64,000 nucleotides of DNA. It comes from Nymphaea colorata. Taxonomy: Eukaryota; Streptophyta; Magnoliopsida; Nymphaeales; Nymphaeaceae. Below, in pieces: positions 7,683 through 64,000 of this stretch (position 1 is the stretch's first letter; every line of letters starts with the position of its first letter). The notes under the pieces are model-generated. The model worked only from the letters and a program-made list of their open reading frames with translations. It made no database searches and had not been told where the DNA came from. Both the position numbers and the translations under genes were made by a program. The stretch covers positions 16,408,802 through 16,472,801 of the forward strand of contig NC_045148.1 in the NCBI RefSeq assembly GCF_008831285.2, read 5' to 3'.

Positions 7683-7721
<39 letters not shown>

Positions 7722-16700: not shown

Positions 16701-19700
16701 ACTGTGACAATGCTCACACCCTTAGACGTGACCACTTGTTTGTCCTGAGGCATATGACAATTTAGCTCTAATACTTGAGCATCCACGTCAAGGTTATCAA
16801 TTTAAATAATTTTAGCAGATTTTATAAATATTAGTTACTGCTTCTAGCCAGCCTAGCCTAGATTGGCATCAGTGTCAGGCTTCTGCCAGCCTAGATTGCA
16901 TCAGCGTCAGGCAAGGGTTACCACATTAGCAGATTTTATCAATATTAGTCACTGCTTCTAGCCAGCCTAGCCTAGATTGGCATCAGTGTCAGGCTTCTGC
17001 CAGCCTAGATTGCATCAGCGTCAGGCAAGGGTACCACACAGTGCTTGGAAACACATATGACCCAATTACTCCTAAGCCCATTTCAATCCTTTCAAAAGAT
17101 TAAACATGTGAGCGAATGGCATAGAGTAGGTTATTCCTAGGATTATCCCAACACAAACAGAAAAAATTATCACTTACAGATAATATATAGATTTATCATC
17201 TACTAGAGTATATAAACTCAGCCCACATAATATGAAACAAGGTCTTTTTTATGGGCACACTCCCTTATGCAGAAGCACTAGGATACTCACACAACGAAAA
17301 CTTCATTAATCTAAAGAGAAAAATAAAGGACCAGAGCAAATCAAGTTAGTTTAAAATTATTTTTTTAATTTTCCTAAGTAACAATTAGAAAATAAACCTC
17401 AAGAGAAATATAAATGAAAGAGAACAAATTAATCAACCTTCACCACTAAAATCATCAATTAGACATTGGCATAATGAGTCCCTAATAGGCTAATAGCAAT
17501 GTTCAATTATATGTAACCCATATAAAACTATTGAAACATGATATGCAATCCTATCAGTAATAAGAGTATCAACCCCCATTCATTTTGCAGTTTAAAAGTA
17601 GTATCAACCAGGGAAAAACACTAGAAATTACCTATCGTGGTGTAACCCTAGTTTCAATTTTGTCAACTTCAAAGTCAAATTTTCTTTTCTTAACTTGCAT
17701 GATGGTTTCAAGTTTCAACCATTACGCAATACAAGTTATATAATTTTCAGATTAGTCATGGTGCACACATCAAATTGTCAATTACTTATCTCTCAAGAAG
17801 AACGACAAGTAATTTGCCTATGTAAATACCAATACTAGCCAATTCCATTCATGACAAATTTTTAGGAAGGTCTCCTTCGGAGGTTTTCAAAAATGTGGTT
17901 AGAATTCAAAACTTTTTGATAATAAAGAATAACAGAGCAGGCTACTAATAATGAGCTTTCAGCCATTTTTCTTACAAAAATAATGACAAAAGTTCATAGA
18001 AAATTTTGAATCATAAATGGAAAAAAATGAAAAACATAGATAAATCATAAATGACGGGGCTTTGTAGAAAAGGAAATTATTACGATAATATGCAATATTA
18101 CTGTGACATTTTTGGACGATATATTGAAGCATTACCAAATTTTTAACAATATATTTTTTTGAAGCTAGTCAGTGGTAAAAACACAAAATTATCAAATTAT
18201 TATCATTATTGTGACTGGTGAACACGTATGCACAATGTACACATGCTTTAACTTGTACTTTACTTCCTTCAAGCATAGAAAGCATCCAAACCTTAGAAGG
18301 ACCTGCAGCATGAAGATACTTACATGCCTCCAAGCCATCTTTCTCTGATGTTATTCTGCAAAGCCATCATCTTCGTTAAGAATAGTATAAATTCAAGTCC
18401 ACAATGAAGCTTCAATATAAAAGCCAAAATTGAAAGAAAAACATGTGCCCCTTTTTTCCTTTAACAATTTAGAACGTCATTTTATTCTCTACTATGTCAG
18501 GAGCATTCCAGACCTTTGCTACGGTCAACAAAATCAAAGCCAATGCCAGCTCCAGTTTTAAAAAGGCTTCCAGAAAATAGAATGGCATCTATGAATTCTG
18601 TCACTTCTTCAATTTCACCATATATAGGAATCTGTCAACCATTAATAGAGGCATAGCAAGGCTGAACTACTGTTGCTCGTATCTACATACTGATGATTTA
18701 CAGAAAAGGAAGCTGCTGCAGCAAACACCTAAGCAGTTTTATGCAGCTTATGGACTAAAACGCCATCTGGCCAGGTTATCAACAGCACTTTTTCCTCTTG
18801 TTCTGTTCCATATGCTTGTTCCAAGCTCATTCTGTAATTTGGGTGTAAAAAGATGATCCCTTCTCTTTCAGATAGTCATCAACTCTTTTCTTCTAAAATA
18901 TGATATTTTCGATGCAACTTCTACCACAAAACCTAAGGTATTAATAATTTCCATAACAAAAATGTACTCCATCCCACTTAATTCTAGGATAAACTTGAGT
19001 AATAATGAAAAACTAGACTTGTCAACAAAAAAAAAAAAAAAAGGTTCTAGTTTGCTGTGCTTCATCATATGTTATGCAATATTTGTTTTAGAGCAGAATA
19101 ATAACTTTAGAATAAGATGGAAAATGAAGGGACATAAATTTAACTAGCAGATGGTTAGAACTTTCACAAACAAAAAATCAATGTCCTAATTTGACATGGA
19201 TATCTAGGAATGCAAACAGCACTTCTGGGGTTTCATTGCTTAGAATGATGCAAGAGGTCCAATACCACACCAATAAGATTAAAAACACAACACAGTTCAA
19301 GAATACTTTTGCCGGTCAAAAAATTACAAAGATGAGAGAAATCATTTTATGTTACTACTTACTCCTTAATACTAGGATACATTTAGATGCAACTAAATTT
19401 TTTCACTGTGCAAATTTTGCTGTTTTAGATGCTTTGCAGCATTGGTAACTTTCTTCTTCACTGTTAAATATTATTTCCACTATTTTTTTCTAGATGAAGA
19501 GCTGAATACTCAATGTCTACCCTGAAAAGTTTACCTTCATATTTTGGGTGCCTTAGACACACAATTATCAATCCCCTGAAACCAACACAAACTTCTGCAT
19601 GCTTTGTGATAACGTCACAAAATTGTAATCACTAATTTTAAAGTCTAAACAAATTTTAAAGTCTAAACAAATTTTAAAGTCTAAGCAAAATAAACCAATC

Positions 19701-32616: not shown

Positions 32617-32801
32617 GTCACCTGCATGCGTGCTAACCGTCATTCCAAGTCAACCGCTTCTTTCCACCCACTCGAACTCTTATGGGGGCAACACGCCCCA
32701 CTTGCCTCGGCCACCTGATCCTCCTGCTGCTGCTGCATATAATTCCCCTTCCCCACTCTATCCGCTGCCTCTCTCTCTCTCTCCACAAAGGAGTAGGTAC
32801 C

Positions 32802-34816
32802 ATGAGGAGACCGTGCTGTGAGAAACAAGACACCAACAAGGGAGCATGGACGAAGCAGGAGGACCAGAAGCTCATCGACTACATCCGAGAGCACGGAGAA
32901 GGATGTTGGCGCTCGCTCCCTCAGGCTGCCGGTGAGATTCACCTTCCTTCATCCCCATCCCTCCTTTTCTTAGACGCATGTAATAAGGCAAGAGAGAGAG
33001 AGTTGCAACTATTAGTTCTGCTGTGGCAAAGAAGGCTCAATTGTCCTTAAAAAATTATGCAACCGAATCTTGTAGATTGCCATAGTCAGAAGGCTTCTCA
33101 TTTCTCGAGAGGAAAATCAAATTTCCATGCTCCCACTGAAAGGTGGGTTGCAACTTAGAAGTGCCTAATACCAGTAGGATCGACGCATACATAGATGGAG
33201 TTCTTCAAATTCTTCTCAAGAAAATGATTACTTGGAATTTGAGAAGGTGATGCATGTCACTTGGACATGGCTCTGCGGCTCTGCCTTTCCCAGGTTGTTG
33301 ATGAGATCGCCTTTGTGTGCCTTTAGGATTGCTGCGGTGTGGGAAGAGTTGCAGGCTGAGATGGATCAACTACCTCAGGCCAGATCTTAAGCGTGGCAAC
33401 TTCGCGGAAGACGAAGAAGATCTCATCATCAAGCTGCACGCACTCCTGGGCAACAGGTGATCATCAATTGCTTAAGCCTCAAACGCGGTTCATCCTAGAT
33501 CTTCCAAATCAATTTATGCACGATCGATCTTCATGTTGCTAATGAAAATTGCCGTCAAATTCTACATATAACATGTATTCCGTATGTTTCTCCCGGCATT
33601 ATTGTACCGAGGAACGGGAATTGTTCGCCTGCCATGCCCGCTTAAACCATTCATTGAAATCACGGTTAAATTTTGACGGGGATTTTGACTTAAGGTCTCT
33701 CCCCCATCCTTCGAATGTTGGTTTGAAGAGGAGTACTGGCATCAGAATACATCATGAGTTTTCACAGTAAAATCGGCATAAGAGCATGATGAAGTAAAAT
33801 GACATTTTACGACAATATGGTGAGAGAGTCGTTCTGACAGCATGAGATAGGTGTCGCTTAAAATTCAAGTCTTAGGTTAGGTGAGTCCTTTTTTACATAC
33901 GTAAGTGATTGTTATTCGTTGGAAGTATTAAGATGAAGCAACTCATCAGTTACTCGCTTCATGGCAGCATAATGGAGTCTGCACTCGAAATGTTGCAGTT
34001 CGGTTGGCCATGAACATGAGAGCACATAATATAGAGCATTTTTTTTTTTCGCTGCAGAAAACGGAAAAAGAAAAGACAAATTTTTCGTTCTCTGCCTATA
34101 TCTCAGGGATGCATGATTTTTTACTGTACAAATTTGTTTACTCTTATAAAAAATTGCAGACTGATCATGAAAAAGTTGCTGCCCTTTCCCAAGATTCGCT
34201 TTTCTGCCTTGCTTTTTTACGCTCGTACAACATCTTTCCTGCTTAGAAACGTTAGCGCTTATGAATCGCTTCTTCATTGCTCAGGTGGTCGTTGATTGCC
34301 GGGAGGTTGCCGGGGCGCACGGACAACGAGATAAAAAACTACTGGAATTCCCACCTGAGGAAGAAGCTCATCAGCATGGGCATCGACCCCAAGAACCACA
34401 AGATCACACCGTGCTGGCAGCGGCCCCAGCGCTCTCACAGCACCACCTCATCCCTCTCGAGGCCTACCAGTGCGGAGAGCAAGCCCCACAAAGAAAATGA
34501 AGATCGATTCAGTGAAGCGACCAAGAAACAGCACAAGGATCACGTCGACGAAGGCCGGCAGCAGCCATCCGGTGCTGCAACCAGCGAGGCGGAGAGCACG
34601 TTGTTGCCGGACTTGAACCTAGAGCTGAGCATCACCACCCCTCCTCCGCCACCTCCGCCGCCGTCTCTACGTCGCCATCTTCCCTACCCTAAAGCACCAT
34701 CACCGCCACCACCATCCTCACCACCAAGTTCTGAGATCCCTTCTTCTTCCACCACAATGTGCCATCTTCGACCCGTGCCCGACCCCAAGCCACCTACATT
34801 GCTTCTATTCAATTAA
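32802..34816 (+). CDS. R2R3-MYB transcription repressor, subgroup 4 (MYB4/MYB308-like)
   Basis: Three exons: 32802-32931, 33327-33456 and 34285-34816. The first two are 130 bases each, and the intron positions are those usual for plant R2R3-MYB genes. The product has 263 residues. R2 begins near residue 12 ([17 protein letters not shown]) and R3 follows [20 protein letters not shown], ending with [18 protein letters not shown]. The R3 repeat carries the DL..K...L......L...R signature for bHLH partners. The [13 protein letters not shown] stretch corresponds to the subgroup-4 C1 motif. LNLEL at 197-201 is an EAR repression motif. Proteins of this type repress phenylpropanoid, lignin or flavonoid genes in the nucleus. 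The C-terminus is Pro/Ser-rich. The start RRPCCEK differs slightly from the usual GRSPCCEK. The subgroup is inferred from motifs; the exact orthologue is not settled. Confidence 0.92.
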
Positions 34817-36109: not shown

Positions 36110-38028
36110 TTGGTAAATGCCAAACCGCAAGGTGTAAGAGCGTGACCTCCTAATTTTGTGTTAAAAAGAGTTTTAAAAAAATGCGAACCTCCTAATGCAT
36201 TTAGAAACACTAACTTTACATCAAATCATGCTTTAATTTAAGTTACTTTTGTAAAAAAAAATGATCTTATCTATTGTCAAAATTTAATTTTGATGATATA
36301 CACCATTAAAGTAGAAAAATAACTAACTTAAATATATGTTTCTCGCTAAGTCATTTTTAAGATCATATCTACAAGGTTAGATTGTAGTACTTTGATAATT
36401 CATTTTAATAGGTCTGATTTTTACTTTGTGTGTGTGTGTGTGTATTTCTAGATAGTTGTCTTGATTTAAAAGTTCTTTGCTGAAAAGGCCATGAATTGTC
36501 ATTAAATCCACCATAAACCGCCACCACATTAAAAACCTTGGTATTTTAATGGCTGTTTTCTAATGACAGCTTTAAATATTAACCGTCTAGCAACATCGAT
36601 CCATGACAACATTAAATTCCTATATATATATATATGAATTTAATGGTGAATTTGGCTATTCAAAATCACTCAACTCATTTATGAAGGCCATTAAATTCAT
36701 AGTAAGAGATGAACATTTGAAAGAAAAACAAAACTAAAAGGGTGATGAATATTTTTGTCATCTATCTATCTAGTGTTAGTTCATACATTTTTATTCCTAG
36801 ATCAAACGTGCTTTAGCATCTATTTAGCGCGCGTACATATATATATATATATATATATATAACCTAAACATTTATTTTTGTTTTTCTCTCTTTCTTATGA
36901 TCATTCAAATATGATTTAATTGGGGCGTTAGTATTGAGAGAAGTCAAGATCTAATATATATATATATATATATATATAAGAGAGAGAAGAGGCCCAATCT
37001 TATTCATGGTCAGATTCTGCACCATTATTCAGGCAAGCCTTCAGCGATATGGTTCAGATCCACAATCTTGAGCTGTCATTTGTACATCCATTATGATGAT
37101 CAATAGTCGTCACAAGATGATTGATCTGTCCATTTATGACGCGCGCCACCACTCGGATGTGGCAATGAACCAAACTCGAATCTTGTCAAAGATCTTTTTA
37201 TTAAGTTATCACCACCTTCGATGCGAGCATAGAAAGTCTTCGGCTTTGCAGGTCACGTGTTATGACTGCGTACTTCTGATAAATAATCCAGTTGGTCTAA
37301 CTTATTAGGTTAAGAGAAAATGGCAAAAATCTAAAAGAATATCATGATTTCGGACATAACAAATGAAGTATAAGGATATAAATGCTTTGTATATAATACG
37401 ATATCCAAACCACTAAATCTGACTTCATAAAATAATATTCACATCTGATTGATTAAATGAACTTGGCTGTGTATAAGCATCAACATCCAAAAAATCAAAA
37501 TGTATCAATTGTTGATCACAGGTAGAAGAGTATAGTTAAAAGTAAAAATGTGAATGATTTACTCCATTGGCAATTACCTCTTTATCTTAGTTCAACTTCA
37601 CATGTCAAATAGAAGTTAGCTTTTGAAAGAGCAAGAAAAGTATTTCATTCTACATACGGATAGCCGGTAAAGTACATTATCTTTTCTTTTTGCCACCTTT
37701 CTGCATAATGATCCGTCGTCTTTGACGAACTCATCCTCGCAATGAAAATTAATTTAATGCGCCTTTTTTGGTTAGCCATTGATAAACACAACTACCCGCA
37801 CAAACCAACCAAGAAATACCTACTTAGTTTCCTACAAACACATCTAACACCGTAAATCAACCAAGAAGTACTTACTTGGTTTCATTTTATATAGAGATAA
37901 ATATATGGACCTATTAGGTTTCATCCAATCACCCCTACCCTATGACTTGTCTTCAACCAAACGCGCTATGAGCCAGGTGGTGTATTATGAGAGATGGAAA
38001 GATTTGTTTGTTCAAACCCAAATTCACA

Positions 38029-43211: not shown

Positions 43212-43630
43212 TAAGAGGGCGTTTGATGGTCACAGGACACGCGTGTTCTGTTCCATTGAGTTTTACATCAAACACCGTCCACAGAACAGGATGGACACGA
43301 CGGACAGTTGGACAAGGACTATAAATTATTCTTTGTTCCATGCTGTTCCGAGCTAACCCTCGGAACAGCGTGGAACAGAACAGCCTCCTGCCCCCGATCG
43401 GCCCTCGCTTTCTCTCCTCCTCCTCCGTCTCTTTGGCGAGCTGGTCACCCTTTCTCTTTCTCTCCTTCTCCGTCTCTGCCCCCGAGCTGCCCTCACCCTC
43501 GCCCTCGTCGAAAGATCACTGTATATTTAAGCTGCGAAATCTGTCGCCGATCAATCTAGTTTGCTCTCCTTCTCCATCGTCTTCGGCTTTCCTGCATCTT
43601 ATGTTATCGTCTTCCGCAAGGAAAAGGAGG

Positions 43631-43824
43631 ATGAGTTCTATAGGAACCAAGGGCGGGCATGGGAAACTGAAGTCATCTAAGTCGGTATTTCGGTCGCAGA
43701 AGGCCAGTCTGCAATTTCCGGTGGGTAGATCGCCCGATTTCTCAAAGCCGGAAAGTATGTTGAGCGAGTTGGTGCGGGTGCGCCTCTCTACCTCTTTTCC
43801 ATGCTCGAGTATCTCGCAGCCGAG
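43631..43824 (+). pseudogene. Histone H2A.X first-exon fragment with frameshift
   Basis: From the ATG at 43631 the frame reads [18 protein letters not shown] and then LQFPVGR, the N-terminal tail and first helix of plant H2A.X-type histones. Near 43729-43730 one base is missing from the codon after VGR. The expected continuation RFLKAGKY...GAGAP...LEYLAAE is found in the next frame up to 43824. There a GTATTG donor follows at the place where plant H2A genes often have their intron. No second exon was found downstream. It is a fragment inside the Pack-TIR element and cannot make a histone. Confidence 0.85.
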
Positions 43825-44329
43825 GTATTGATTAAAAGGAAGTTATATATTCGTTTCTGATTATATGTCTCTGTTCGTTAGATTGTTTTCTAATGATTCA
43901 ATCTAGGGTTTTCGTTTTTAAATCTGTGATTCGGTGCGATCTTGAATCAGTTCCTTTTTCCACCGATGTTTTCTTTTCATTCTTCAAATGAGTGAGTGAC
44001 TATTGCCCCTAAAACCGATGAAAGAAATGGCTGTTTCTATTTCCAGTTTGTCTTTCGCTTGTAGTATTTGGTTTCCCCTTTTAGTATGTGTTGGTGGAGA
44101 ACGAAAAGGAGTCTTTAGTTGATGTTCTTAGTCTTGGAACTTCTTCCTGATTTTTTTTCCATCTGGAAAATAAAAGCGATCCCTTTTGGTCAGTTTTGTT
44201 TTTGCCTATTATTTTCTTTTGGAGATTCGTTCTATTTAGCAACATCACAATCTTTTCCTCTTCATTTTGTTTTGTTGTTCTCTGGATCTCATTGAATTTC
44301 TTTCCTGTATAATCTGTTGGGGAGTTCGA

Positions 44330-44530
44330 TCTACATTATCTAATTTGGTCGACCGGATCATTGATGACCACATGGCGAGGATGGGGAGAAAAGCTGACCA
44401 ACACCCCGACAAGGTGGACGAGCTTCTAGCCTTTCTCGGAGATGTTGCCTCTGCAGGAACAGGGGATGCGCCAGATGAAGCTGCCCTCTCTACAAAGCTC
44501 ACAAGAGATAACATCAAAGCCATAATCATG
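44330..44530 (+). pseudogene. CYP84 (ferulate-5-hydroxylase) exon fragment
   Basis: The frame reads LVDRIIDDHMARM, then DKVDELLAFLGD and finally KLTRDNIKAIIM, followed directly by GTAATC. This matches the internal P450 segment of ferulate/coniferaldehyde 5-hydroxylase that ends exactly at its conserved intron. Neither the N-terminal part nor the haem-binding part is present in the window. Upstream of about 44330 the similarity stops abruptly, presumably at a capture breakpoint. The family call is from memory of CYP84 sequences; another related P450 is possible. Confidence 0.8.
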
Positions 44531-45329
44531 GTAATCTTCATCCCCCTTTCTCTCCTTCTCTCTCATTCTCTCTCTGCATAGAGCCACTTCGCCTTGGTGG
44601 ATTTTTCTGCCTGAACTTTTTCTTTACATTTTCCGACTTAGTAATTATAAATATAAAAGGTCATGAATGAAAAGAAAGGGAAGCAGATTCATGGGTGGTT
44701 CAAAATTTTCAGTACGTTATGTCTTCTTCTTGACTTGATCATGCTTACAAAATGTTTGATGATGCATTAAGTACTAATTCATGGAATCATGGTGCTTGAG
44801 GCTCAAGTGTGGTTTATGCAAAGATAGATCATTTGGTTTGAACGACTACCATTAACTATACATCCTTTTAACTATACATCCTTGAGATCCTTCTATTGTG
44901 ATTCTTGATATGCATAACCATACCGCCATACCTTTTATGTGTGGTTGCCTTTTCATGTACAACATTATTTCAATTTCCTTTTGGAAAGTTCATAAAACGA
45001 TTGAAATATGTGAACCTAGGATCCTCTTGAGGATATGTATAACCACTTTTGGTAAAAAGCAGCTCTCCAAAACCTGGAGCATACCAAGTCCTTGCTATAT
45101 AAAAGTTACGTTCAAGATACCTATATGCAGTTTTATGTTTCATACACCAAATGTCCTTAGTGCATGCAAGTGTAGGCATGCATTTGGTAATTTGGTGTGC
45201 AGATACAACTTTTGACTTTTTGAAAGAATACATGATGACACCAGCCCCTCAATATTTCTTTTTCGATTATCAGTTTCTAGTTTGTATTTATTGAGTCTGC
45301 TTCTAAGCATATGGTGAATGTGTAAGTAG

Positions 45330-45588
45330 GTGCTTGGAGGAAGGGGCAGAGGAGTTCATAGCGAAGCCGGTGAAGCCCTCTGATTTGAAGAGGTTGAAGG
45401 ATTATCTTGTTGGGAAGAAGGTGGTGGAGCAAGTAGGAGAGGGGATTCAAGCTCAATCGTGCAAAAGGAAGCTGCCCTCCTCCCCGTTATCGCCATCACC
45501 ATCGTCCTCATCTTTACTGCCATGCAATGACCTTGATGTCATTCCCCCTGCATCACCCTCTTCATCGCAGCCTCCATGGCCAGACTAG
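45330..45588 (+). pseudogene. Type-A response regulator last-exon fragment
   Basis: After a TAG acceptor at 45327-45329 the frame reads CLEEGAEEFIAKPVKPSDLKRLKDYL, the end of the receiver domain of cytokinin-induced type-A response regulators, including the conserved Lys in KPVK. A Ser/Pro-rich tail follows and ends at a TAG at 45586-45588. The phospho-acceptor Asp and the N-terminal DDS motif are absent from the window, so this is only the last exon. It is in frame and undamaged, and its intron side is retained. Confidence 0.85.
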
Positions 45589-46288
45589 ACTCTTAGTCGG
45601 CAACTGTTGACTCCTGGCATAGCTCTCCATCGAGCTCTCTCTCCCTCTCTCTCTCTCTTCAGTTTTAATTTTGTAATGGCAATTTGAAGACATGTACAAG
45701 AATCATGTAAAAAGGAAGATTAAGATATGTTCATATAGAATGAATAAAAATCTTCTTTTTTGGATATGTCTGCTTTGATTTTGTTTTTTATTTTTTTCTC
45801 TCTTCATGATGAGGGCATATCTCAACTTCTCAATTTATGAGATGGTATGATTCGACCAAGTTGGAGTACTTAAAATTTTCTTATCTATTGTTGTACTTCT
45901 AAACTGATAGAAAGCACAAGCTATTGATGTACTCTGAAATTGTGGAGGTTACTCATCGTTCCTTGTTTTCGATATCTTAAGTTCGTGCATAGCTTGCATC
46001 TTATCTCATTATTGCACGTCAATTTAAAAGGGCTTATAATTCTTATTTATATAGGTAAAAGTTAAAACAGACAGAACGGATGATCGGACAAAACAAAAAC
46101 AAACGCCAGACAGGACAGAACAGACATATGCAAAACAAACGCTGGACAAGAGGAACATAATGTTCTGTTCTTAAGATCATCAAATGGTGGACAATGAACA
46201 TCATTGTCCATAAGAACAGGACAATAGTCTGATGGACAGGACGTCCTGTCTGTCCTGTCCCAATGGACAGCAATCAAACGACCTCTAA

Positions 46289-46909: not shown

Positions 46910-47426
46910 TCACGTGCACTGGCTTGACTGCCAATCCCCACTAGTTGTCAACTGAGATATCAAGTTTCCCAGTCTCTTTGCTTGAGGCCCAGGCTTGAGG
47001 ACGTTGATGTTCCCCCATTTTGAGCACGGGTCTAGCCACCCATTGGGCTTGCCGAGACACCACCCACCGGGAACAACTCCATGTGGCCTACGCTTGAGGA
47101 TCCTGTCGTCCACCACTTTCAGCAAAGAGTCGTCTTCAAGAAATCTTCTAGCAAAAGCTGCACCGCTCTCCACCATTCCTTCATAATCCGTGGCATTGAG
47201 GACTCGTGGCTCTGGATTTGGGGGAGTGTCCCAGACGAGGTAACGAAGATCATTGTTTACAGTCGTGTTCTGGAATTCTGGAGAGTTGCAGATAACGCTA
47301 TGGAAGTAACCCTCTTGGGATATCACAACGTTGGTGAAATACAACAGCAAAATACGAGGAAGGTTGTCCCATCCCAAAACACAGAATTCAAGGAAAGAAC
47401 GGCTAAGAACAATCCATGGAGATCCT

Positions 47427-47465
<39 letters not shown>

Positions 47466-50400
47466 CAAGAGCTAAGCATATCTCCAACATAACAGGAATA
47501 AAAGACAACGATGATTACTAAATTAATTTCACCTGTGAAGAACTTGAAAGCATTTGGCTTTGGCCGCTTTTGTGATGCATAAAATATTGGCGGCTTGCGC
47601 AACAAATAAAGACCTGGGTCCACTACAATTGGGTTTGCCCTCTGATACCTGCACAAAATAACTAAATATCAGGTCATGAAACACGGAATATGATGGAACT
47701 ATGAATGTACATGATTGTCAGGAAAATCTTTCTTTCCACATACTCTTTCCATCCAAGCTCACTGGTGTGGTCAATGAAGTTGAGGTCTCTCCTTATAGAG
47801 GAAAAGACATGAAGCAAGTCTGCGAAACACAGAAGGCAGTGTCCACATCAGTTTAACCGCTAAGGCTAAATGTGCAGCAAAATGAGAAGGAATAACAAGG
47901 CTGGGAGCAACAATGAAGGTTCATCGACACCTTCATGCTTGGGGTTTCACGAAGAAAACTGCGAGTGCCCGTGGAAAACAATCCTGAACCTGGTCTTCCG
48001 AGCCAAGTCCACATCATGGGTACCAAGTTCAAGCTTCACTAAGATAATCCTGGTTAAGAATTTTCCCTTCAAGGCTTTTTAAGAAAAGGATTGGGCCCGC
48101 TTAGCAAACTTTAATCTCCCAAGTTTAATATATAAAGCAAAAATTGTATGATCCTAATACAAGCATCAAAAAAATCAAAATTATAGATTCTCTTAAAACA
48201 GAATTAACCTTTCTAGCAGAGTTCAATCAAAGCATTGAGAGAACGTCGAAGAATAAACCTCTAGAAGCAACACCACAAGGATGTGCTTTCCACCAACTTA
48301 GCTAAGATTTAAAAAGCACCACTTTAGTCTGAATTAACTGTATTTACACACAAAGGTTTTTCCTTCGTTTAATATGGACTTTGCTGGTCTATTCACTCTC
48401 TAAAGAAAAGTCACAATGGTTACAATGTTAGGGCTGCAAGTAAATGGAGAAGTCAATGAACTGACCCTCGCATGAGGTTGCACAAAATAAGAAATTGACT
48501 AACATAGCCACCAGTGTATCATTAAATCATCTTGTCTATATATACATAAAAGGCACACACTTGCATATGAATGATGTTACCTTAATGTAATAAACATGAA
48601 TAACGTTCCAAGTGGAACTCTTGAAAGCAGATTGAAATCCAGTATAATGGATGACAAAAGAAAGGAATGAAGCATTGTCGTGGATATCGTGTTACGAACA
48701 AAAATATTGTGATATTAATGAGAAAACGAGAAAAAATGAGAAAAATGCAAAAAAAAAAAAAAAAAACTTTCTTAAAAAATAAAAATAATGTGAAAATTTA
48801 TAACATTTTTATCACGTTTCCCACCTTTTCCCCCTTTGTTCGATTTTCTTGTTTCTTACATCAATCTCATCAGGAATCCAAATCTAAACTTAAATGAAGT
48901 TATTTATCAACATTTTATCAGCATTAAAACATTATTTTTACCATTTTAGCTACCTTTTAGTGTCTTGCTATTAGTTTCTCATTCATTTTGCTTTTATCCA
49001 ATTTTTAAGATTTTTTTCATTTTCCCAAGATTTTCCTGAGAAAAACAACTTTGCCGAAAAAAATATCCAAGAAAAACCTTGCTGTTAAAACCCCAAGAAT
49101 AATATTTGTGACACTGGAATGAAGTCAAGATAGAATAAGCAATGAAGCAGTGCAAACAAACCTAAAATAGGTTGAGAACAAACATGCAGTAAAATGAAGT
49201 TAGCATAATTTTCATCCAGAGAACCATGTAGAGTAAAAGAACCAAAATTAATTGAGTTCTTTGTGTACTTCCATCCAAAAAAACATTTTCTGACTTGACG
49301 CAGCAGTCAAGACTAATAGAAAATTTTATCTACTCCTAGTCCTAGGCCATAATCTCTATTCCTGGTGCACATGATATACAAGCCAGGGTCACCCAATCAT
49401 GTCAACAAATGCACCCAGGTTAGAACTCCTGACATCCGTCAACATGGAGTCAAGTCCAAATCCTTAGCTACGTGAACAAAGCTCCAATTGGCCAGACAAA
49501 AGAGGGAGAGGAAGAGTTTTAAAATGATGAATGGATCATATGTTATAGCAAGAAGTAAAATATTTCAAAGAGATCATAAAAAGGCAAAAAAAATAATATC
49601 TAGGCGATCACAATCCCTAAATGATACCAAGGTAAATTTGTCTGTTCTTTCCTTTCATCAAAGAAAAAGGAATTTTTTTCTCTAAGATAAATCTTTTCAC
49701 TTTTTAATACTGATCAATATTTTAATTTAACTCTACGGTCTCTACCCTCTTCCTTTTGAAACCTCAGCTTCCCATTCTTCAGATTTTAAATCTGTTCTCA
49801 TTTTACAAGTATTGCCTGACCTCCAGTAAACATATACAAGTTCGTCGTGAATTCCTGCCTGTAATAGCATCCATACACTCGTAGTACATCTATAAGTATA
49901 GGCTACTAATAAAAAATATACACATTATCTTTGACACTTCCATAGTAAATTTTTTGGTCCATGCAGCTCGTTTTAGTCATCTTCATTATAATATAAGTTA
50001 ATGACCTAATGCTAAGGAATGTTAGTTGTCCTCTCCCATAACGATGTTGCATGTCAACATTGACTCTGGCATCTTAAAAATTGGGTTTGGAACTTTGGTT
50101 ATTTAAAATTCTGCTTTTCAAAAGTATGCACTTTCAAGCCTTACACATGATCCATTTAAATCATTCTCCTCCATTTACTAGTAGGTGAAAGGTTTTGTTT
50201 TCATCGCAAGATGAGTCCCCTTGAATTGCGATCTGCAACCTAGGATTGTTGGGCAGACATAGTCATACCTGTGAACAATCCCAGGTTCAAAGGGCCTTAA
50301 ATTTTATCAAAATAACAAATGCTGCAGGGTGACACTTGTGTAGCCTGCCATTGTTAGGTGGTTGAATTCAAGAATCACAGAAATACGAGAAAGTTCAACC

Positions 50401-53400
50401 ATAGGAAAAGCATGTTCCTAAAATGGTCGCCAGCAAGCAGCAGCATAACAATTTTGCAGCAATCCATATACTTAAACCTGGTTACGCTACTGAAAAAGGT
50501 AAATCTAAGGTACTTGATAGAAGCTGAGAAATTGAGACCATGTCAAGGTAAAAATCTATAGTCATTTTCGTTGTGCTTTTCACTTTTATCTGCTACTATT
50601 TTCCAAGGTGCACAGATGCTTCCTAGGAGACAACTGCCTTACCTCAGCTTTCCCTTTTTCTAGTTTATTGTCATAGAAAATGAAGCAAATCCTAATACAG
50701 ATTAAGAATTCAGATCAACCAATGATTGCCTACTTGTAAGAAGGAAAAGAACATCAAAAACTGGTAAAAACGTACAACACCTGCAACCACGATATAGTGA
50801 GCACCGTGGCACAAAGATGCATCAGGGCAACGTACTTGTGCACCCCCATGCTGTTTGTTAGTTGTCACTCACATTCCAGTCTCAGTCACGGGGAAGCAGG
50901 CTAAGAAACGTCACAAGAAATTGATACAGCATTAGAAAGGCAAACAAATACAAGTAAAACGCATTTACATCCAAATCTCAGATATGGTCTACTAAGATCT
51001 GAACTGTGCAAAAGTTGCATCCTACTGCTTCATTATCTACTGCAGATGCAATACACTGCACTTCCTCTCCATGATACTGGTTGAACAAATGGACTAGCAT
51101 ATAATAGATTCACTAAATGAAGATATAAACAAAAAACTCCAAAATCAATAATAAGGAAAACCGTTCATGTATCAACCAGTTAATGCACAAACCTTCTCAA
51201 GAACTTGTGGATACTCTAGGGAACTACCTAGAAATCTTTCAACGTCCACATCTCGTTAGTCTACAGACTCTATACCCTTCAGTACAAGCTTATCAACAAG
51301 TAGAGCTGACCTATTATTCCTTCTCAAAACAAAGAGAAGCTTACTCATCCAATCTTAGGCAAATGAAATGGACATGATAAGTGGCAGTTCGTGAGGAGCA
51401 TAAAGCCATAAACTAATATCGATAAAGCCTAATCCACCTCATGAAATTTCTGTTAAAAATACAACCACTTATGCATGTAACTAGCCTTGCTAAGAAAAAA
51501 ATAGCATCGTTCATATTTTAATGGTCTAAATCCACCACTATCCCACTATTTCAAAAATACTTCATGCTTCCTGTAACCACTTCAATCAACAATTTGTACT
51601 TAACCACTATTTCAAAATATTGATGCAGCTCTCAGATTTCAATTTAAAGCATTTGAGAGTTCTCAGTTGATGCATATTCTCTTTCATCCACATTTAACTA
51701 ATGCAAAAACAAAAACTACAAATACAAGAAGACAACTATCCCAAAAAAGGATTTTGTTGTTCTAGGCCTTTAGCTCAATTGTAAAGCTTAAGTGCAATTT
51801 GGAGATTTTGATGAGACCAGTGTTGTACGTATCGTACGATACGTACCATACCGTTTTGAAAATACAGTATGATACACCCCCGTATCGTAAATAGGGGGTG
51901 TATTGTTCCTGTATCGCACATATCGTGCGATACGGGCTGATTTCGCAGAAACCTGCCCGAGACCTACTTATTCGACTTCTTTTTGAAAAATACCATCCGT
52001 TCTTCATTTCTCACGCTTGGATACTACCTTCAAGGAGGGCGATCGTCCATTTTCAGTTCACTATCAAAAAGTTGATTTTCATCGTGAAATCGAAGATTAA
52101 GGGGTCGATTTGTGCATGCGTGGTCGATTTTCGTTGGGAGGAAATGGGTTTTCTTCATTTCTTCTTCGTAAGGTATGAAATCTCATGTTTTTACCATATA
52201 TTGATAATTTTTTACCGTACAATCGTAGATTGAAAGATTTTGAATGTTTTTCATTAAGTTTACCATTGGATTTCATTTTTTTTTTTGAAGATATAGATCC
52301 TACGTGGCAATGGTGCGAAAGGGTGAAGGAGAATAACCGCTTGAAACTCAAATGTAGCTTTTGTGAGAATACATTTTCAGGAGGGATTAGTAGAATGAAG
52401 CACCATTTGGCAGGGACCTCCAAAAATGCGTCTCCTTGTGTTGGAGGACCAAACAAACCTTTGCTTCCATTTGTGCGTTAACAATGTTTAGATATGTTTC
52501 ATGTTTTACATCAAAAAATGATACAAAAAGAAATTGAAGAAGCAGATGTAGGCTATAATGAGCCTTTGGAAGATGAAGAAGAAGAGGAAAAAGCTTATGA
52601 ATGTGATGATGAAGATGATAATAATCTATGAACAAATTTGGAGACCTCAAGAGGTAGAGATTGTAGAGGAAAAGGGATCATGTATGAAGGAGGTCGATCT
52701 GGCATAACAGGAAGGAAGAGAAGAGGCACAACAGATATTAGGGCCAGGCATGGTATGCGACCACTTAGTGGTAGAGTTCCTACTAGTAGGTCTAGTGTTG
52801 GTTCTATTAAGGGTTGTTTCCCTTCATATACTAGCCCAGGTGGTCAGCCACAGATTCGTGTTGCTATGACATCTAAAGATATGGTATATCATGCACAAAA
52901 GATGGTAGGGAAATGGTTTTATGATGCATGTATTCCATTTAATGTAGCTAATTCTTTTCAATTCCAAGCCATGACAGATGCAATTGCTTCTATAGGCCCC
53001 GGATTCAAAATGCCATCATATCATCAGTTGAGGGGCAAAATTCTTCAAGATACGGTCAAAGAAGTGTCTGAACATTGCGATGAGTTGAAATTATGTTGGA
53101 AGGAAACAGGTTGCTCCATTATGTCAGATGGATGGACTGATACAAGGTCAAGAACACTTGTAAATTTTCTTATTTATTGCCCTAAAGGTACAATGTTCTT
53201 GAAATCTCTTGACTTGTCTGATGTTCCTAAGTCAGCTGAGATTTTGTTCAATGTTTTTGACAATGTTGTATAAGAAGTTGGACCTGCAAACATTGTACAG
53301 TTTATTACAGATAATGCTGCAAATTATAGAGCTGCAGAAGATTTGTTATTTCAAAAGTATAGAACATTCTATTGGAGTCTATGTGTCACTCATTGTGTTA

Positions 53401-56400
53401 ATCTAATGCTTCAAGATCTTAATGAGATGCATGATATGAAATCAGCCATTGACCAATATCAAGAGGTAACAAAATTTATCTATAATCATGCATATGTATT
53501 GAGTTTGATGAGAAAGTTTACAAAAGGAGTTGAATTAATACGACCTACATAAACTAGATTTGCCACAAATGTATTGACTGTGCAGAGTGTGGTGAAACAA
53601 AGAACTCATTTGAGGCAGATGTTCGCTAGTGAAGAATGAGTTGCATATCCACATGCTCATAAAAGAAATGCTTCTTTAGTTGTGGATATTGTATTCAATA
53701 ACGAATTTTGGAAACATGTGTGAAGCTATTGAAGGTCAGAGTGTGGTGAAACAAAGAACTCATTTGAGGCAGATGTTTGCTAGTGAAGAATGAGTTGCAT
53801 ATCCACATGCTCATAAAAGAAATGCTTCTTTAGTTGTGGATATTGTATTCAATAACGAATTTTGGGAACATGTGTGAAGCTATTGAAGGTTTGTGTTCCT
53901 TTAGTTAAAGTTCTCAGGTTAGCTGACAACGAGGATAGACCTTCCATAGGGTACTTATATGAGGCTATGCATAGAGCGAAAAAGGCAATTCGAGACAACT
54001 TGAAAGAAAAGAAAAAGTTATATATGCCCATATGGAAGATTATAGATAAAAGGTGGACTGGACAACGTCATCAACCTCTTCATGCAACAGCTTACTATCT
54101 AAATCCTGCAATTAGATTTTCTCCTACATTTAAGAAGGACAGAGAAGTCTTAGGTGGCTTGTTAGATTGTATTAATGTGTTAATGGTAGATTCTAGAGAA
54201 CAAGATGTTGTGCACAATGAGTTGGATCTATATGATACTTGTTTTCGGAACATGGGACAACCTGTCGCCATTCGAGCCAGGACAACCATGCGTCCAGGTA
54301 AATACATAGAAATTTTTAATTTACTTTGCATTTGTTACATTTGATTCTTTTAAAATTTTCACATTGATTTGTTATATTTTTGTTTAGATTTGTGGTGGAA
54401 TAGGTATTGGTTTGATCGACCAAACCTAGCACGTTTTGCAATCAAAGTCTTCAGCCAGACAAGCAGTGCTAGTGGATGCAAAAGGAACTGGAGTGTGTTC
54501 CAACATATTTATAGCAAAAAAAGGAATAGGCTTGAACATAAAAGGTTGAATGACCTTGCCTTTGTTCGATATAATATGAGGTTGAAACAAAGGTAATATA
54601 GGCATATAGCTTAATGTTTACATTTTTTGTACAATATATTTATATGAAATTATATATTAACAAGTTTTCTCTTATTTAACGTAGAGAATTAAAAAAATCA
54701 TTAGCAAGGAAGCACACATCTCAGTTCGATCCTATCAGCTTGGAAAATTTTGACGATCTAGAGCCACAGATTGAGGAAGAACCAGCTACAATATTTGATG
54801 ATGAAGATCTTGAATGCTTCAACCTTGAAGCTGAAGCAATAGAAGACTTTGTTGATGAAGGAGAGTCTGCTACTGCTGGTGATGAATATGTTGGTGAGGA
54901 TCTTCCAATTCTTGACGATGAAGATGATGAAGATTATGAATCATGAATCATGAATGAGAGTCAAGTCAAGAGTGCTTTCATTTTATATGTATCAAACGAC
55001 TTAAGAGTTATGAATCTATGGTTGTTGAACACTTGAATGTTTTATCACTTGGCTTATGCTTTGTTGAATGATATTGTTATGAATTTTGATGTCTATGAAT
55101 GATGAATGCGTAAGTTTATAGCAATAATAAGTCTATCATTATCTCAAACATGTTTTCTATGAAGAATTTATTATTTTTAATTTTTTCTGATTTTTTTATG
55201 AATTTTCCGATTTTTTTATTTTTTTATTTATTAATAATTTTTTTTATGAATCATGAATGAAAGTCAAGTCAAGAGTGCTTTCATTTTATATGTATCAAAC
55301 GACTTAAGAGTTATGAATCTATGGTTGTTGAACACTTGAATGTTTTATCACTTTATGGCTTATGCTTTGTTGAATGATATTGTTATGAATTTTGATGTCT
55401 ATGAATGATGAATGCGTAAGTTTATAGCAATAATAAGTCTATCATTATCTCAAACATGTTTTCTATGAAGAATTTATTATTTTTAATTTTTTCTGATTTT
55501 TTTATGAATTTTCCGATTTTTTTTATTTTTTTATTTATTAATAATTTTTTTTAAAAAAATTACGATATTTTACGATACGGCGTATCTTAAAGCCCGACTG
55601 ATACGGCTTATGATACGCGTTTTACAACATTGGATGAGACAATTACCAAGTCAATGAACCTTACTGACTAATTTGATGACTAGATTTATGTGTAATCCCA
55701 GAACCACTAGTCAGGAATGGATAATAGTATAATACCAGAACCACTAGTCAGGAAGACAACAAACAAGACCAGTCTAACAATACTAACTAGCAATTTGTTA
55801 TAAAGTGACACGTAGTTTCTCAAGCTATAAGTGAAAGGCAAAAGTTTAATTGAAAAGACAGCATTTTCTGAACTAAAAATATGCCTTAGAATCATTAAAT
55901 AATAATGTATGACCAGCTATTTTCTAGCATCTCCAGCAGCAATCGCAGTCTCAATCAAATAGAACTGTCAAAATATGGTAATAGTGATGATTAATTGCCT
56001 TCTATAATTAAAACATTACAGGCACATCAACAATGTATGATACCACATCTCGCATAGATATATTTGCTGTGCCAAATGGCATGCAACAGATAGAAATTTA
56101 ACTTATTTTAGCATTGGAAAATAAATGATAATGGCCATGATTTTATTTTGCAGATCTCCAATGCTATCTTCATGTTTTTTGTACTTTTTAGTCTTTACTT
56201 GTTACAAATGCCAAACTTGTAGTTCATTCTAGTTGTTGAACAAGTTACCTTTACATTTTAAGCAACAGGTCATGTGTACCAAGTAATTAAACCCTCATCA
56301 TGTATATTTAAATAGCCAAATATAATATATCTGAAGCATTATTGTTTGATGAGCCAGTCGCAGGTAAAAAGCAATGTGCGTTAATTCTGCTTTCTACCTT

Positions 56401-57876
56401 GAAGCACTAAAAAGAACATAAATCAAGCTGATTCATGAAGTAAAAGGGAAGGAAACACACTTAACAAGCAGTCAAGGCTGAGATAAACTGAGAAGAGTAA
56501 TGGTAATGTCAGAACCCAACAATTATCAAGCAAATAGACTAACATCACCCAATTACCAGAGTTAATTTTACTAAATAGGTACCAGAAAGGAATAAGTAGA
56601 TGAGGATTCAAGCAATATAGCAGCAATGATAAAGCAGTGTATACAATTCATTAGCAGAAAGGGCTCACGCATGTAAATCATGTAAACCTTCGGCCTTTTC
56701 TGGAAAATTCGTGACAATATTGACATACAAATGCCTACCCGTGACGAGCATTCTTCAGAAACCGTGCATGAGGAGCCTAATTTGAAGGAAGAATGCTATT
56801 TTGAAAACGTCATGTTCTTTGAGACTGCATCCGGAGTTGAAACATGTTCGCTATCAGCATATCTTTAAAACATGGACGTAATAAATCATATACACTGTGC
56901 TTGTAAGGGACAGATTATCTTTGTGGGCAAGATAATGTAAGGAAAGATTTCCAGCTTAACACACCCATTTTGTCTCTTACTTGATGAGCGTGTAGCAAAG
57001 ACACGATACAGGTTGCAAAAGATAAGTCACGTAAAATGAACAAAAATTCTACAGACGTGTTCTATCTATGAAACCATTCTATGCTCAGCAAGGGGCGATC
57101 ACAGCAGGAATGTGGAAGGAATCCATTTAAAGGAGAAACGTGACTCGAAAATCCACCTTTATACAAACAACTTATAACAAGAAAAAGAGTCCCAAAAAAA
57201 TTTAAATCGTTTGATCACCTTGAACCACCAAAGAACGAATCCAGAGGACAAAGAAACGACAAGGATGAGAGGAAAATCCATGACACGGAAGAAGCTCACC
57301 ATCTTGGGTCACAAGTGGATAGTCCGAAGCGCTCAGCGTGACGAACCAATCCCAACCCCCATCGATCCTGAGAAGCACGGCAGCTCCGTGCAGTATCGCC
57401 GAAAGCGTCGACGATCCCATGTAATTCGAGGCATCTGCCTTCCCGACAACATCCACATTCCCGAAAGCGCGAAAAACCCTAAGGGCCCTCACCGCGACGG
57501 CGAGCTCCTCCCGCTCGTTGTTGGACGCGGCGGAATCGAGGTGGAGGAGATAGCGGTTCCGCGGGTGGTACACGGCCTTGAGGAGGCGAAGCACCTTGTT
57601 CTTGTCGCCGCGGCTACCGGAGATCCAATAAGCGAAGACTGGAGGGAAACCGGGGCCCTTGAGAACGCCAGTGGCACGGGCATCGGCAGCCGGCCGGCCG
57701 GCGACCACCTTGTAAAGATTGAAAGTGGCAGGAGCGCCGTGGCCGGAAATGACAGTGAGGAACAGTATCAGGGAGACCAGCGACAGGGAGAGGAGGAGGA
57801 AGACCCACCTCCTCTCTGAACGCCAACGAATGATGGTAAGAAGCCATTTCCTGTTGATTAAAGGCCGAGCTATCAT
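46910..57876 (-). CDS. GT14 family glycosyltransferase (GlcAT14/BC10-like)
   Basis: Four exons in transcript order: 57876-57300, 47819-47744, 47648-47533 and 47424-46910. The product has 427 residues. It is a type II Golgi membrane protein: a basic N-terminus, one membrane segment at about residues 24-43, then a lumenal Core-2/I-branching domain. Recognisable segments are FAYWISGSRGDKNKVLRLL, YLLHLD, DWFVTLSASDYPLVTQDDLL, DLNFIDHTSELGWKE, PIVVDPGLYL, FTGSPWIVLSR, EGYFHSVICNS and VPGGWCLG. Arabidopsis GlcAT14 proteins add beta-1,6-linked glucuronic acid to arabinogalactan; rice BC10 affects wall strength. The ATG at 57876 precedes MIARPLINRKW; no ATG lies upstream in frame. Intron 1 is 9.5 kb and contains a decayed hAT transposon. 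The exact donor and acceptor sugars cannot be read from the sequence. Confidence 0.93.
47820..51809 (-). other. Intron 1 of the GT14 gene, 3' portion
   Basis: AT-rich non-coding sequence between exon 2 and the hAT element. It contains an AT-rich dispersed repeat at about 48688-49114. The frames here are short and not recognised. Confidence 0.7.
48688..49114 (+). repeat. AT-rich dispersed repeat, copy 3 (candidate MITE)
   Basis: The left end GTGTTACGAACAAAAATATT and the complement of the right end GTGTCACAAATATTATTC are imperfect inverted repeats. The interior shares TTAGTTTCTCATTCATTTT and AAGAAAAACCTTGCTGTTAAAA with the other copies. It is longer (about 427 bases) and more diverged than copy 1. 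Confidence 0.5.
51810..51817. repeat. hAT target-site duplication, left
   Basis: GATGAGAC directly precedes the CAGTGTTGTA end of the hAT element and is repeated exactly at 55633-55640. Eight bases is the standard hAT duplication length. Confidence 0.93.
52282..54946 (+). pseudogene. hAT transposase remnant (BED, DUF659, dimerisation domain)
   Basis: A BED-type zinc finger begins near 52291 (DPTWQWCERV...LKCSFCENTFSGGISRMKHHLAG). A DUF659-type segment follows (LRGKILQDTVKEVSEHCDELK, GCSIMSDGWTDTRSRTLVNFL, FITDNAANY, and THCVNLMLQDL). After an intron-like gap the C-terminal hAT dimerisation region appears at about 54389-54500 (LWWNRYW, LARFAIKVFSQTSSASGCKRNWS). An acidic tail ends at 54944. 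In-frame stops occur at 52479-52481, near 52629, at 53271-53273, near 53550 and in each copy of the 154-base duplication. The main body stays in one frame through the first of these, so decay is mainly by nonsense mutation. No function is expected. Confidence 0.9.
53583..53890 (+). repeat. 154-base tandem duplication inside the hAT transposase remnant
   Basis: Two copies (53583-53736 and 53737-53890) start CAGAGTGTGGTGAAACAAAG and differ at only about two positions. Each carries the same in-frame TGA after the AGTGAAGAA segment, so the stop preceded the duplication. Confidence 0.9.
54945..55550 (+). repeat. 303-base tandem duplication in the hAT 3' region
   Basis: Two nearly identical copies (54945-55247 and 55248-55550) start GAATCATGAATGA. 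They begin at the end of the transposase frame and run through AT-rich 3' sequence. They differ by a few bases and small indels. Confidence 0.9.
55633..55640. repeat. hAT target-site duplication, right
   Basis: GATGAGAC, identical to the copy at 51810-51817. Confidence 0.93.
55641..57299 (-). other. Intron 1 of the GT14 gene, 5' portion
   Basis: AT-rich sequence between the hAT element and the GTGAGC donor after exon 1. AGAACCACTAGTCAGGAA occurs twice at about 55700-55755. No gene is seen. Confidence 0.7.
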
Positions 57877-59224
57877 TTTCCTCCTCCTCCTCCTCCTCCT
57901 TCTTCCTTCCTCCTTCCTCCTCCTCCTGCTTCCAAATTCGTCGGATCTTCTCTCACTGTTGCTCGCCCTTATAAACAATAGACACTCAGAATCTCCGCGG
58001 TTGCTGTTTCCTCTCCCTCTCTTCCCCTCTCCCTCTCACTCCACAAATTTCCATATTGTTTTCCATTTCAGAAGTATTTATAATGAATAAATGAGCTGCC
58101 GGCAACTCTTATTTAACACAATAAGAAAGTAGTTTTGAAGGTACACCGCCAACAAACATAATATATAACATTGAAAATGACAACAACAAATTTACTTTTT
58201 GTCTCACATAAAAATATAGCACGGATTTTTCTTGATCTCTCATTACTTGTCGACTTCGTCTTGTTTGAAAGTAAGAACAGACAGTTTCCTTGTAAAATGT
58301 AGTGTTGCATTGATGCTTGGATTCGAATCGTTGTTACACTTCAACTTGGCTTCCCTCTGTTAGCACAACGATAGCATTTAGCTTTCAAAATGTGTTATAA
58401 AATGTATAAGGTCATAAATAAACAACTCGTTAAATCGAATATACAAAAAAAATTGTGTTATTTTAAATTCAATTCATAAATTTTGATCTATATATAACAT
58501 TTTTAAGTCTTTTTTGTTCATTTTAAAATTTTCTAGACTTTATGTTCCTTCACATGATTGGATTTATGAACAATAATTTAGAGCACTATAGATGTGCCTG
58601 TCAAGTAAATAAATAAATAAATAAATTGTTTATCTATAGATGTGCCTCCTTCATCCTCCACAAATTTCCAATGTCAATGATTCACCAGGATTCAGATTGA
58701 GACTTTCTCTGTCATATTTAAACGTGAGTCTGAATTAAATGTCTAAGCAAATTTGTTGGCTTTCCACTCATAAAATAAAACCAAATTTTTATTTATTCAA
58801 TAAAACAAAGAATTACATGCCCAGAGGTACTGGATCGAGTGGCATGAGCGCTTTTTCGTTGCACCAATAGAATTGAAGCGAAACAGAAATTGAACATCAA
58901 TTTTAATTTAGAGACCGACACCGACGCAGTTCTAGACCCTGAGAGTAGGATAAGAATGAAGCTTCGGACGGTGATATAAAGCTCATGCTCACTTGAAAAG
59001 TATTATTAAAGTAACTATGTTGTCATCTCACAATACTCTAGACGCAGGCCAAGACATTTTTAGATGCCCCCAAGTCAAGGTGTTTTTAAACTTGGGCCCT
59101 TCTTGGATGTAACATTTTATGCATTTTTTTGGCATTTAGGTGATCATAAGATTTCGAAGCATTCATGAAAATTGAACCGAGCCATTATAAACCTGCTAGT
59201 CTAACCAGCTATGCTTTGCCTTTA

Positions 59225-62754: not shown

Positions 62755-64000
62755 ATGAGTGACGGAACCGAGGAAGTAGAAATAATGAATGCAAGGATTG
62801 AGAATGTCAAAAACCAAGCTCACAAAGAGCCTTCAAATGGACATGAACTTTGGGTAGATGGACTTCTTTGTGCTTTTGAGTACATTCGGCCGCGAGGTAA
62901 GGCAAATTACACAAAATCAGGCTCGAAGATGCACCTCATCAAACACCCCCGGAGTCAAGAACTGGACAACCAAAACCAGCAGCCTGCAGCTTGTGACGAT
63001 GGTCCTATTGAAAAGGATGAAAGTGCATACAATTATGTTCAAGAACTAGATGAAATAAACCAACAGTCTGCCGCCTATCGGTATGCTCTTTTTGAAGGTA
63101 GTGAAGGTACTAACGAGTATGTTTGGCGCAATAGTCAAGCCATCGGAAATGTTTCGGATAATCATTGGGTTCCAATTGGATGGGAAAGAATTTCTGAACT
63201 TGTCAGATCCGTGCAAGTTGATCAAGACAGGTTTACACGAACAATAGACATGAGTGCCGAGGATGAGGATCTCACAGTTGCAGATATTGCAGCTCCTTAC
63301 TGGGAAAAACCAGCTGGTCCTACGTGGTGGTGTCATGTCATTCCAACTCATCCAAATGTCGATTCATGGTTACGAAATGCACAATGGTTGCATCCTGCAA
63401 TTAGTACTGCTTTAAGAGATGAAAGTCGTCTGATCAGCGAGCGAATGAAACACCTGTACTATGAGGTTATCTTTGAGCTCTTTTTAGTGCCTACAGCTTC
63501 CCGATTTTCAGATTTTGCTTGTCTAATTTGTTGCCTGTCTATTTCCAAACGAGTGAATTGTATTTTGTTTCATAGAAGCTCCAGTCTTCCTATAGCGAGC
63601 TCTTTAAATTTCCATGTGTTTATCCTGTTTATCTGCTTATGTGCACCATGTCGGTCATTCTCCTTTACTCATTTTCTGGCCTTTAGCATGTTCAGGCTTC
63701 ATGTTTGTGTTGCATATTTTGGCAACTCCTGTATCTCTGACTTAGACAGCTTACAAACTTCTTGTTTATCCTTTGATATATATGTTCACTTCCAGAGCAA
63801 GATATAATTGTGTTTCATAAATGGTCTGGTATATTTTCTGTTTTCATTTCTTAGCCAGTGGATGGTGAATCTTGCATAGGTTCCAGTCAGAGTTGCTGGT
63901 GGGTTATTGTTTGAACTCCTTGGCCAGTCAGTAGGGGATCCCTTCTCCTATGAGGATGATATTCCAATTGTTCTTCGATCATGGCAAGCCCAAAATTTTT
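62755..64000 (+). CDS. CorA-like (Mg2+ transporter-like) membrane protein, 5' part
   Basis: Two exons are visible: 62755-63465 (237 codons) and 63880 to the window end, joined by a GT-AG intron. The N-terminal soluble part includes SNGHELWVDGLLCAFEYIRP, HWVPIGWERISELV and PTWWCHVIPTHP. Exon 2 reads VPVRVAGGLLFELLGQSVGDP and then DDIPIVLRSWQAQNF. These match my memory of the plant CorA-like family annotated as magnesium transporter-like (the Arabidopsis At1g29820/At2g42950 type). In that family the two membrane helices lie in the C-terminal part, beyond this window, so the GMN-type pore motif cannot be checked. Transport activity is unproven for the family. The ATG at 62755 opens the frame after an in-frame stop; the gene may have a 5' untranslated intron. 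The long extension of the frame to 63807 is intron read-through. Confidence 0.75.

Follow-up and report, generated by a model that had tools for sequence, protein, structure and literature searches.

Is the DNA at 43215-46285 of the window, the whole 64-kb stretch of Nymphaea colorata DNA analysed here, a single transposable element that has picked up pieces of host genes, or did its ends and its contents come together in another way? The original prediction had described this region as one non-autonomous PIF/Harbinger-like element. We also consider it likely to be a decayed, non-autonomous PIF/Harbinger-type transposon carrying gene pieces (Pack-PIF), a reading that is supported by the motif in its terminal inverted repeats (TIRs), the TAA duplication, the paired subterminal repeats and the gene pieces inside.

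Terminal inverted repeats and subterminal clusters

The proposed element comprises 3071 bp between two TAA duplications, which can be read directly from the sequence at 43212-43214 and 46286-46288. Sequence comparison and a count of inverted pairs delimit two arms of 15 bp, the left TIR GAGGGCGTTTGATGG at 43215-43229 on the + strand and the right TIR GAGGTCGTTTGATTG (reverse strand) at 46271-46285 on the - strand. Both termini begin with GAGG. When GAGGGCGTTTGATGG is compared to the reverse-complemented arm GAGGTCGTTTGATTG, 13 of 15 positions are identical and a TAA stands directly outside each arm, so the inverted ends with TAA on both sides that had been claimed are indeed present. PIF/Harbinger elements are recognized by a 3-bp TTA/TAA duplication and by TIRs of at least 14 bp with the motif G(N)5GTT (the TIR criterion as given in PMC2213677), and both of the 15-bp arms contain that motif.

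The inverted pairs were counted over the whole 64-kb window as 15-mers with at most two mismatches and with arms 100-6000 bp apart. This gave 27676 pairs, of which 1642 have at least six G+C in the left arm, and only one of these 1642, the TIR pair of the element, is flanked by identical TAA/TTA on the outside. In 24 dinucleotide shuffles the mean number of such TAA/TTA-flanked pairs was 0.29, and at least one pair was found in six of the 24, which makes TIR and TAA by themselves weak evidence. The shuffles are a lenient control, as they contain a mean of 204 pairs with six or more G+C compared to 1642 in the real window. Most of the excess pairs in the real window are of low complexity; 257 are left if at least eight distinct 3-mers are demanded in an arm, and identical 3-bp flanks of any kind occur in four of these complex pairs. 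A TAA/TTA-flanked pair with G(N)5GTT in both arms exists once in the window and in none of the 24 shuffles. Regardless of the flanks, two pairs in the window have the motif in both arms, and matching flanks are present only at the element.

The feature that decides for an element beyond a chance pair of TIRs is independent of them, namely the clusters of GGACAG/GAACAG (GRACAG) repeats. Counted on either strand, seven of them lie in the first 300 bp of the element and eight in the last 300 bp, with none in 43515-43815, two in 43815-45985 and none in the flanks (about 600 bp on each side). The left subterminal region with its seven repeats covers 43215-43386 and the right one with its eight repeats 46068-46285, the inner borders being set by eye. 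Out of 1274 sliding windows of 300 bp across the 64 kb, 11 contain at least five GRACAG and all of them overlap the two ends, which means that the dense repeats predicted near both ends are the only two dense clusters in the 64 kb. The inverted likeness of the two end regions, measured with a lenient score, was reached by 0 of 500 dinucleotide shuffles and by 1 of 500 8-base-block shuffles, and the score of the direct orientation by 141 of 500 8-base-block shuffles.

Alternatively, an older patch of pseudogene fragments could be flanked by two independent MITE-type insertions that belong to the same family, in which case the outer TAA match would be due to chance and nothing would have moved as a unit. 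Under strict scoring no clear likeness of the ends is seen beyond 13 bases (the inverted likeness is reached by 37 of 500 shuffles, and the direct orientation scores 22 versus 21 for the inverted one), and the six shuffles with chance TIR and TAA pairs point in the same direction. Moreover, a reversed TIR-like stretch with three mismatches is located inside the left end at 43265-43279. However, there is no TAA behind this inner stretch, and it would delimit an element of 65 bp, a very small size for a transposon. Near the right end, allowing up to three mismatches gave no inner TIR. The outer TIRs each have TAA on the outside, and neither repeat cluster extends past them. Furthermore, Pack-TYPE elements have been proposed to arise by the joint mobilization of two neighbouring insertions. 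We therefore regard two unconnected insertions as unlikely and retain the single decayed transposon as the preferred explanation.

A close second copy of the TIR was not found in the 64-kb window; the pattern with up to three mismatches yielded five matches where 3.82 are expected. The TIR-like stretches at 37954-37968 and 62936-62950 on the - strand, each with three mismatches, are within this chance expectation. Comparison of the element with the whole window revealed no second element, only the match to itself, simple repeats, palindromes of the ends and matches of chance length.

Gene pieces between the ends

Host coding DNA between the TIRs characterizes Pack-TYPE elements and is found here in the form of three pieces, of which the H2A piece was identified by PDB, while the other two were assigned by comparison to hand-typed reference sequences. 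All three are located on the + strand, in agreement with the single orientation that had been proposed.

The H2A exon-1 fragment was delimited by PDB chain comparison and translations and extends in two frames from the start codon to ...LEYLAAE (43631-43824, + strand). Positions 43729-43830 translate into 34 residues, for which the best PDB match is 7bp2_A (Histone H2A.6) with an E value of 3.2e-13 and 29 of 34 identical residues; the other five residues of this conserved stretch are changed. The part with the start codon (from 43631) is in a different frame from the downstream part, and one base appears to be missing after ...FPVGR. Pfam gave no match for this piece, including the six-frame search of the element. 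The claim that the piece derives from H2A.X stands with respect to H2A, whose identity is given by solved H2A chains, whereas the subtype is read from the N-terminus, which looks like that of H2A.X; the diagnostic C-terminus is absent from the element. The parent is probably H2A.X. A TATA-box-like sequence, TATATTTAA, is situated about 100 bp upstream of the start codon (43522-43530, + strand), and this region is perhaps the captured promoter/5'UTR of the H2A gene. On the other side, the sequence which begins with GTATTG and reaches up to the P450 piece (43825-44326, + strand) is putatively from the first H2A intron, which would be expected after the exon-1 fragment.

The second piece is a CYP84-like P450 fragment (...DRIIDDHM ... 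KLTRDNIKAIIM) at 44327-44530 on the + strand, which was delimited by alignment to a hand-typed reference and is directly followed on its 3' side by the donor-like GTAATC. The region 44301-44560 scored 105 against a hand-typed part of a CYP84, while the maximum of the shuffles was 40 and none of 500 reached the score of the real sequence. The proposed CYP84 origin is thus far above the shuffles against this reference, but neither Pfam nor PDB gave a P450 match and NCBIfam gave no confirmation. The silence of Pfam and PDB says little, because the piece ends upstream of the P450 signature. Vinculin was the best PDB match (E 0.0012) and was judged to be spurious.

The third piece (RCLEEGAEEFIAKPVKPSDLKRLKDYL ... 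stop), a fragment from the last exon of a type-A response regulator, is located at 45330-45588 on the + strand according to an alignment to a hand-typed reference, with an acceptor-like TAG immediately 5' of it. Compared to a hand-typed, idealized type-A stretch, the region 45200-45600 reached a score of 125, with a shuffle maximum of 48 and 0 of 500 shuffles reaching the real score. In Pfam a 30-aa query matched Response_reg weakly (profile positions 88-107 of 111, 13.6 bits versus a cut-off of 30.2), and this match was gone with an 85-aa query. The assignment to a type-A regulator therefore holds against this hand-typed reference, but Pfam is weak on it and NCBIfam and PDB did not confirm it. 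About 155 bp 3' of the regulator stop an AATAAA resembling a poly(A) signal is found (45743-45748, + strand), and this region is perhaps the captured 3'UTR of the regulator. IMG/VR provided no confirmed relative of the P450 or the regulator piece, and four peptide words from these two pieces had no match in the literature searched.

The donor-like GT after the P450 piece and the acceptor-like AG before the regulator piece suggest that the capture took place at the DNA level together with introns; these sites presumably correspond to introns of the parent genes. The non-coding stretch between both pieces (44531-45329, + strand) presumably consists of parts of two introns joined. It may hold another insert as well, and a further capture between 44.6 and 45.3 kb had been suspected. 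At 44657-44796 on the + strand the words GKQIHG and AYKMFDDALSTNSWN occur in two frames and resemble plant PPR proteins. No PPR match was obtained for this interval in Pfam, NCBIfam or PDB, the score against a hand-typed PPR consensus was reached by 39 of 500 shuffles, and in a frameshift-tolerant comparison 18 of 200 shuffles reached the score. The PPR-like words are consequently not significant, the suspected fourth capture is unconfirmed, and we treat it as a lead only. The element also contains a 16-bp tandem duplication without mismatches (44852-44883), which is perhaps a repair scar.

Coding capacity and possible transcription

The absence of a transposase inside is a further characteristic of Pack-TYPE elements. 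In the six frames of the element, searched against Pfam with E values up to 0.1, no transposase-like match was obtained, although the sensitivity of this search is low for short decayed pieces; the only match belonged to an irrelevant family and was below the family's own cut-off. As Pfam missed the H2A piece too, its silence excludes only a well-kept transposase. PIF/Harbinger families have a DDE transposase and an ORF1, either in the element itself or in a partner, and the lack of a match would be expected of a non-autonomous copy. The gene pieces are now non-coding. The reading frame of H2A is broken, and splicing the P450 piece onto the exon of the regulator shifts the frame and leads to a stop after 17 residues.

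On one strand and in the order of a gene the element contains the TATA-like sequence at 43522, the start codon, a donor-like site, an acceptor-like site, the stop and the AATAAA at 45743. A transcript is for that reason possible. The same order of signals could be expected from an expressed chimeric host gene that was assembled out of these three fragments and has been maintained by selection. The broken H2A frame, the five changed residues among the 34 of its conserved stretch and the out-of-frame splice between the P450 and regulator pieces argue against such a gene, which we consider very unlikely. It is similarly hard to believe, though conceivable from the arrangement of the signals, that a decayed Pack-PIF of this kind works as a composite transcription unit made up of H2A promoter and first exon, P450 middle exon, and regulator terminal exon with poly(A) signal. 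Although no fused protein could be made from its transcript in the splice form examined, this RNA could be a source of small RNAs that match the three unrelated parents. If this was true, these small RNAs would link a chromatin gene, a gene of the lignin pathway and a cytokinin-response gene. Rfam gave no match at the gathering threshold in the whole window.

Origin, surroundings and relation to known elements

The GRACAG arrays together with the 15-bp TIR were likely the binding sites for a transposase which would have been supplied by another element elsewhere. A cut-and-paste insertion at this site would have duplicated the target TAA, and before that insertion fragments copied from at least three host genes would have come between the ends. 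From an H2A gene these would be the 5' end, including the start codon and a portion of its intron, from a CYP84-like P450 gene the final part of an internal exon, and from a type-A response regulator gene the last exon together with the 3'UTR. The capture itself may have occurred by copying during gap repair, or by two neighbouring elements being mobilized as one. We infer the superfamily, the binding of the transposase and the mechanism of capture, and likewise the parentage of the CYP84 and regulator pieces from the hand-typed references. An extended PIF target consensus was not found in the literature searched and was not used.

On the - strand, a gene with matches to PF02485 (Core-2/I-branching enzyme) probably has its last exon next to the proposed element, whose right end lies about 625 bp downstream of the stop in this exon; the gene pieces of the element run towards that gene. 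The PF02485 matches are located at 46913-47668 and 57205-58035 on the - strand and cover the profile positions 161-241 and 1-106; they probably belong to a single gene as exons separated by about 9.5 kb. Between these two matches, on the opposite strand, an ORF with DUF659 (PF04937), a domain often found in hAT-type transposons, is encoded at 52632-53270 (+ strand). A copia-type LTR retrotransposon occupies 7634-13053; its direct repeats of about 450 bp share 96.7% identity and enclose gag/pol ORFs of the - strand. The window further contains an ORF of 535 codons that matches multicopper oxidase domains (3658-5262, + strand) and pieces of a Myb-type DNA-binding domain at 32637-33047 and 34265-34813 on the + strand (profile positions 1-30 and 22-46), which are perhaps exons of one MYB-like gene. 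The retrotransposon, the Myb-type domains and the Core-2/I-branching enzyme domains indicate that the DNA is most likely from a plant nucleus. Near-identical tandem duplications are found at 54943-55553 (about 304 bp), 53572-53890 (about 165 bp) and 16812-17038 (about 114 bp).

Multi-gene capture is best known from the Pack-MULE, CACTA, hAT and Helitron groups, and the pieces might thus have been gathered by an element of another type, the PIF-like ends being incidental. At the ends of the element, however, neither the 9-11-bp duplication of a Pack-MULE (the flanks are TTGTTCCCTAA on the left and TAAATGCCCTA on the right) nor the 8-bp duplication of a hAT element (TTCCCTAA and TAAATGCC) is present, and the termini start with GAGG and not with CACTA. 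We regard this origin as very unlikely. Rice Pack-MULEs share with the element described here the host gene fragments between inverted ends. Pack-MULEs have longer TIRs and 9-11-bp duplications, which are not seen at this element.

The Pack-PIF assignment is in line with published TIR tables. A GTTTG core is contained in 10 of 10 Medicago consensus TIRs (PMC2213677) and in six of the seven PIF TIRs in the table of an orchid paper (PMC6327408), and the duplications in both tables are mostly TTA/TAA. The second TIR base of the element, an A, is not the usual base in these Medicago and orchid tables. Pack-PIF elements of maize were described by Gisby and Catoni 2022 (PMC8903248), who also surveyed PIF-type Pack elements in rice and state that Pack-TYPE elements of maize often contain more than one locus. 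In the description given there, the maize Pack-PIFs have PIF TIRs, mostly TTA/TAA duplications, captured gene DNA and no transposase in common with the element, whereas the sequence of the TIR differs and the element is known from one copy in the window. Inside grapevine PIF elements such as Pifvine-3, stretches that match exons and introns of the host were reported by Benjak et al. 2008 (PMC2528002), but this family was defined with transposase-bearing members, while the element here is without a detectable transposase. Host gene fragments are also carried by Tgm-Express of soybean, for which the title of the paper announces new exon combinations by alternative splicing (PMC1947982); this transposon belongs to the CACTA superfamily and its transcripts are known, whereas the element in the window is known from DNA alone.

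The original prediction had regarded a PIF-type capture element as unusual. That view does not hold, since Pack-PIFs and multi-locus captures have already been published (PMC8903248, PMC2528002), and this kind of element is therefore known. For the same reason a single case by itself changes little. What the element adds is one readable case of gene shuffling of the PIF/Harbinger type in which a 5' part, a middle and a 3' part lie in gene order on one strand, an order that is relevant to the way in which such elements acquire or retain their pieces.
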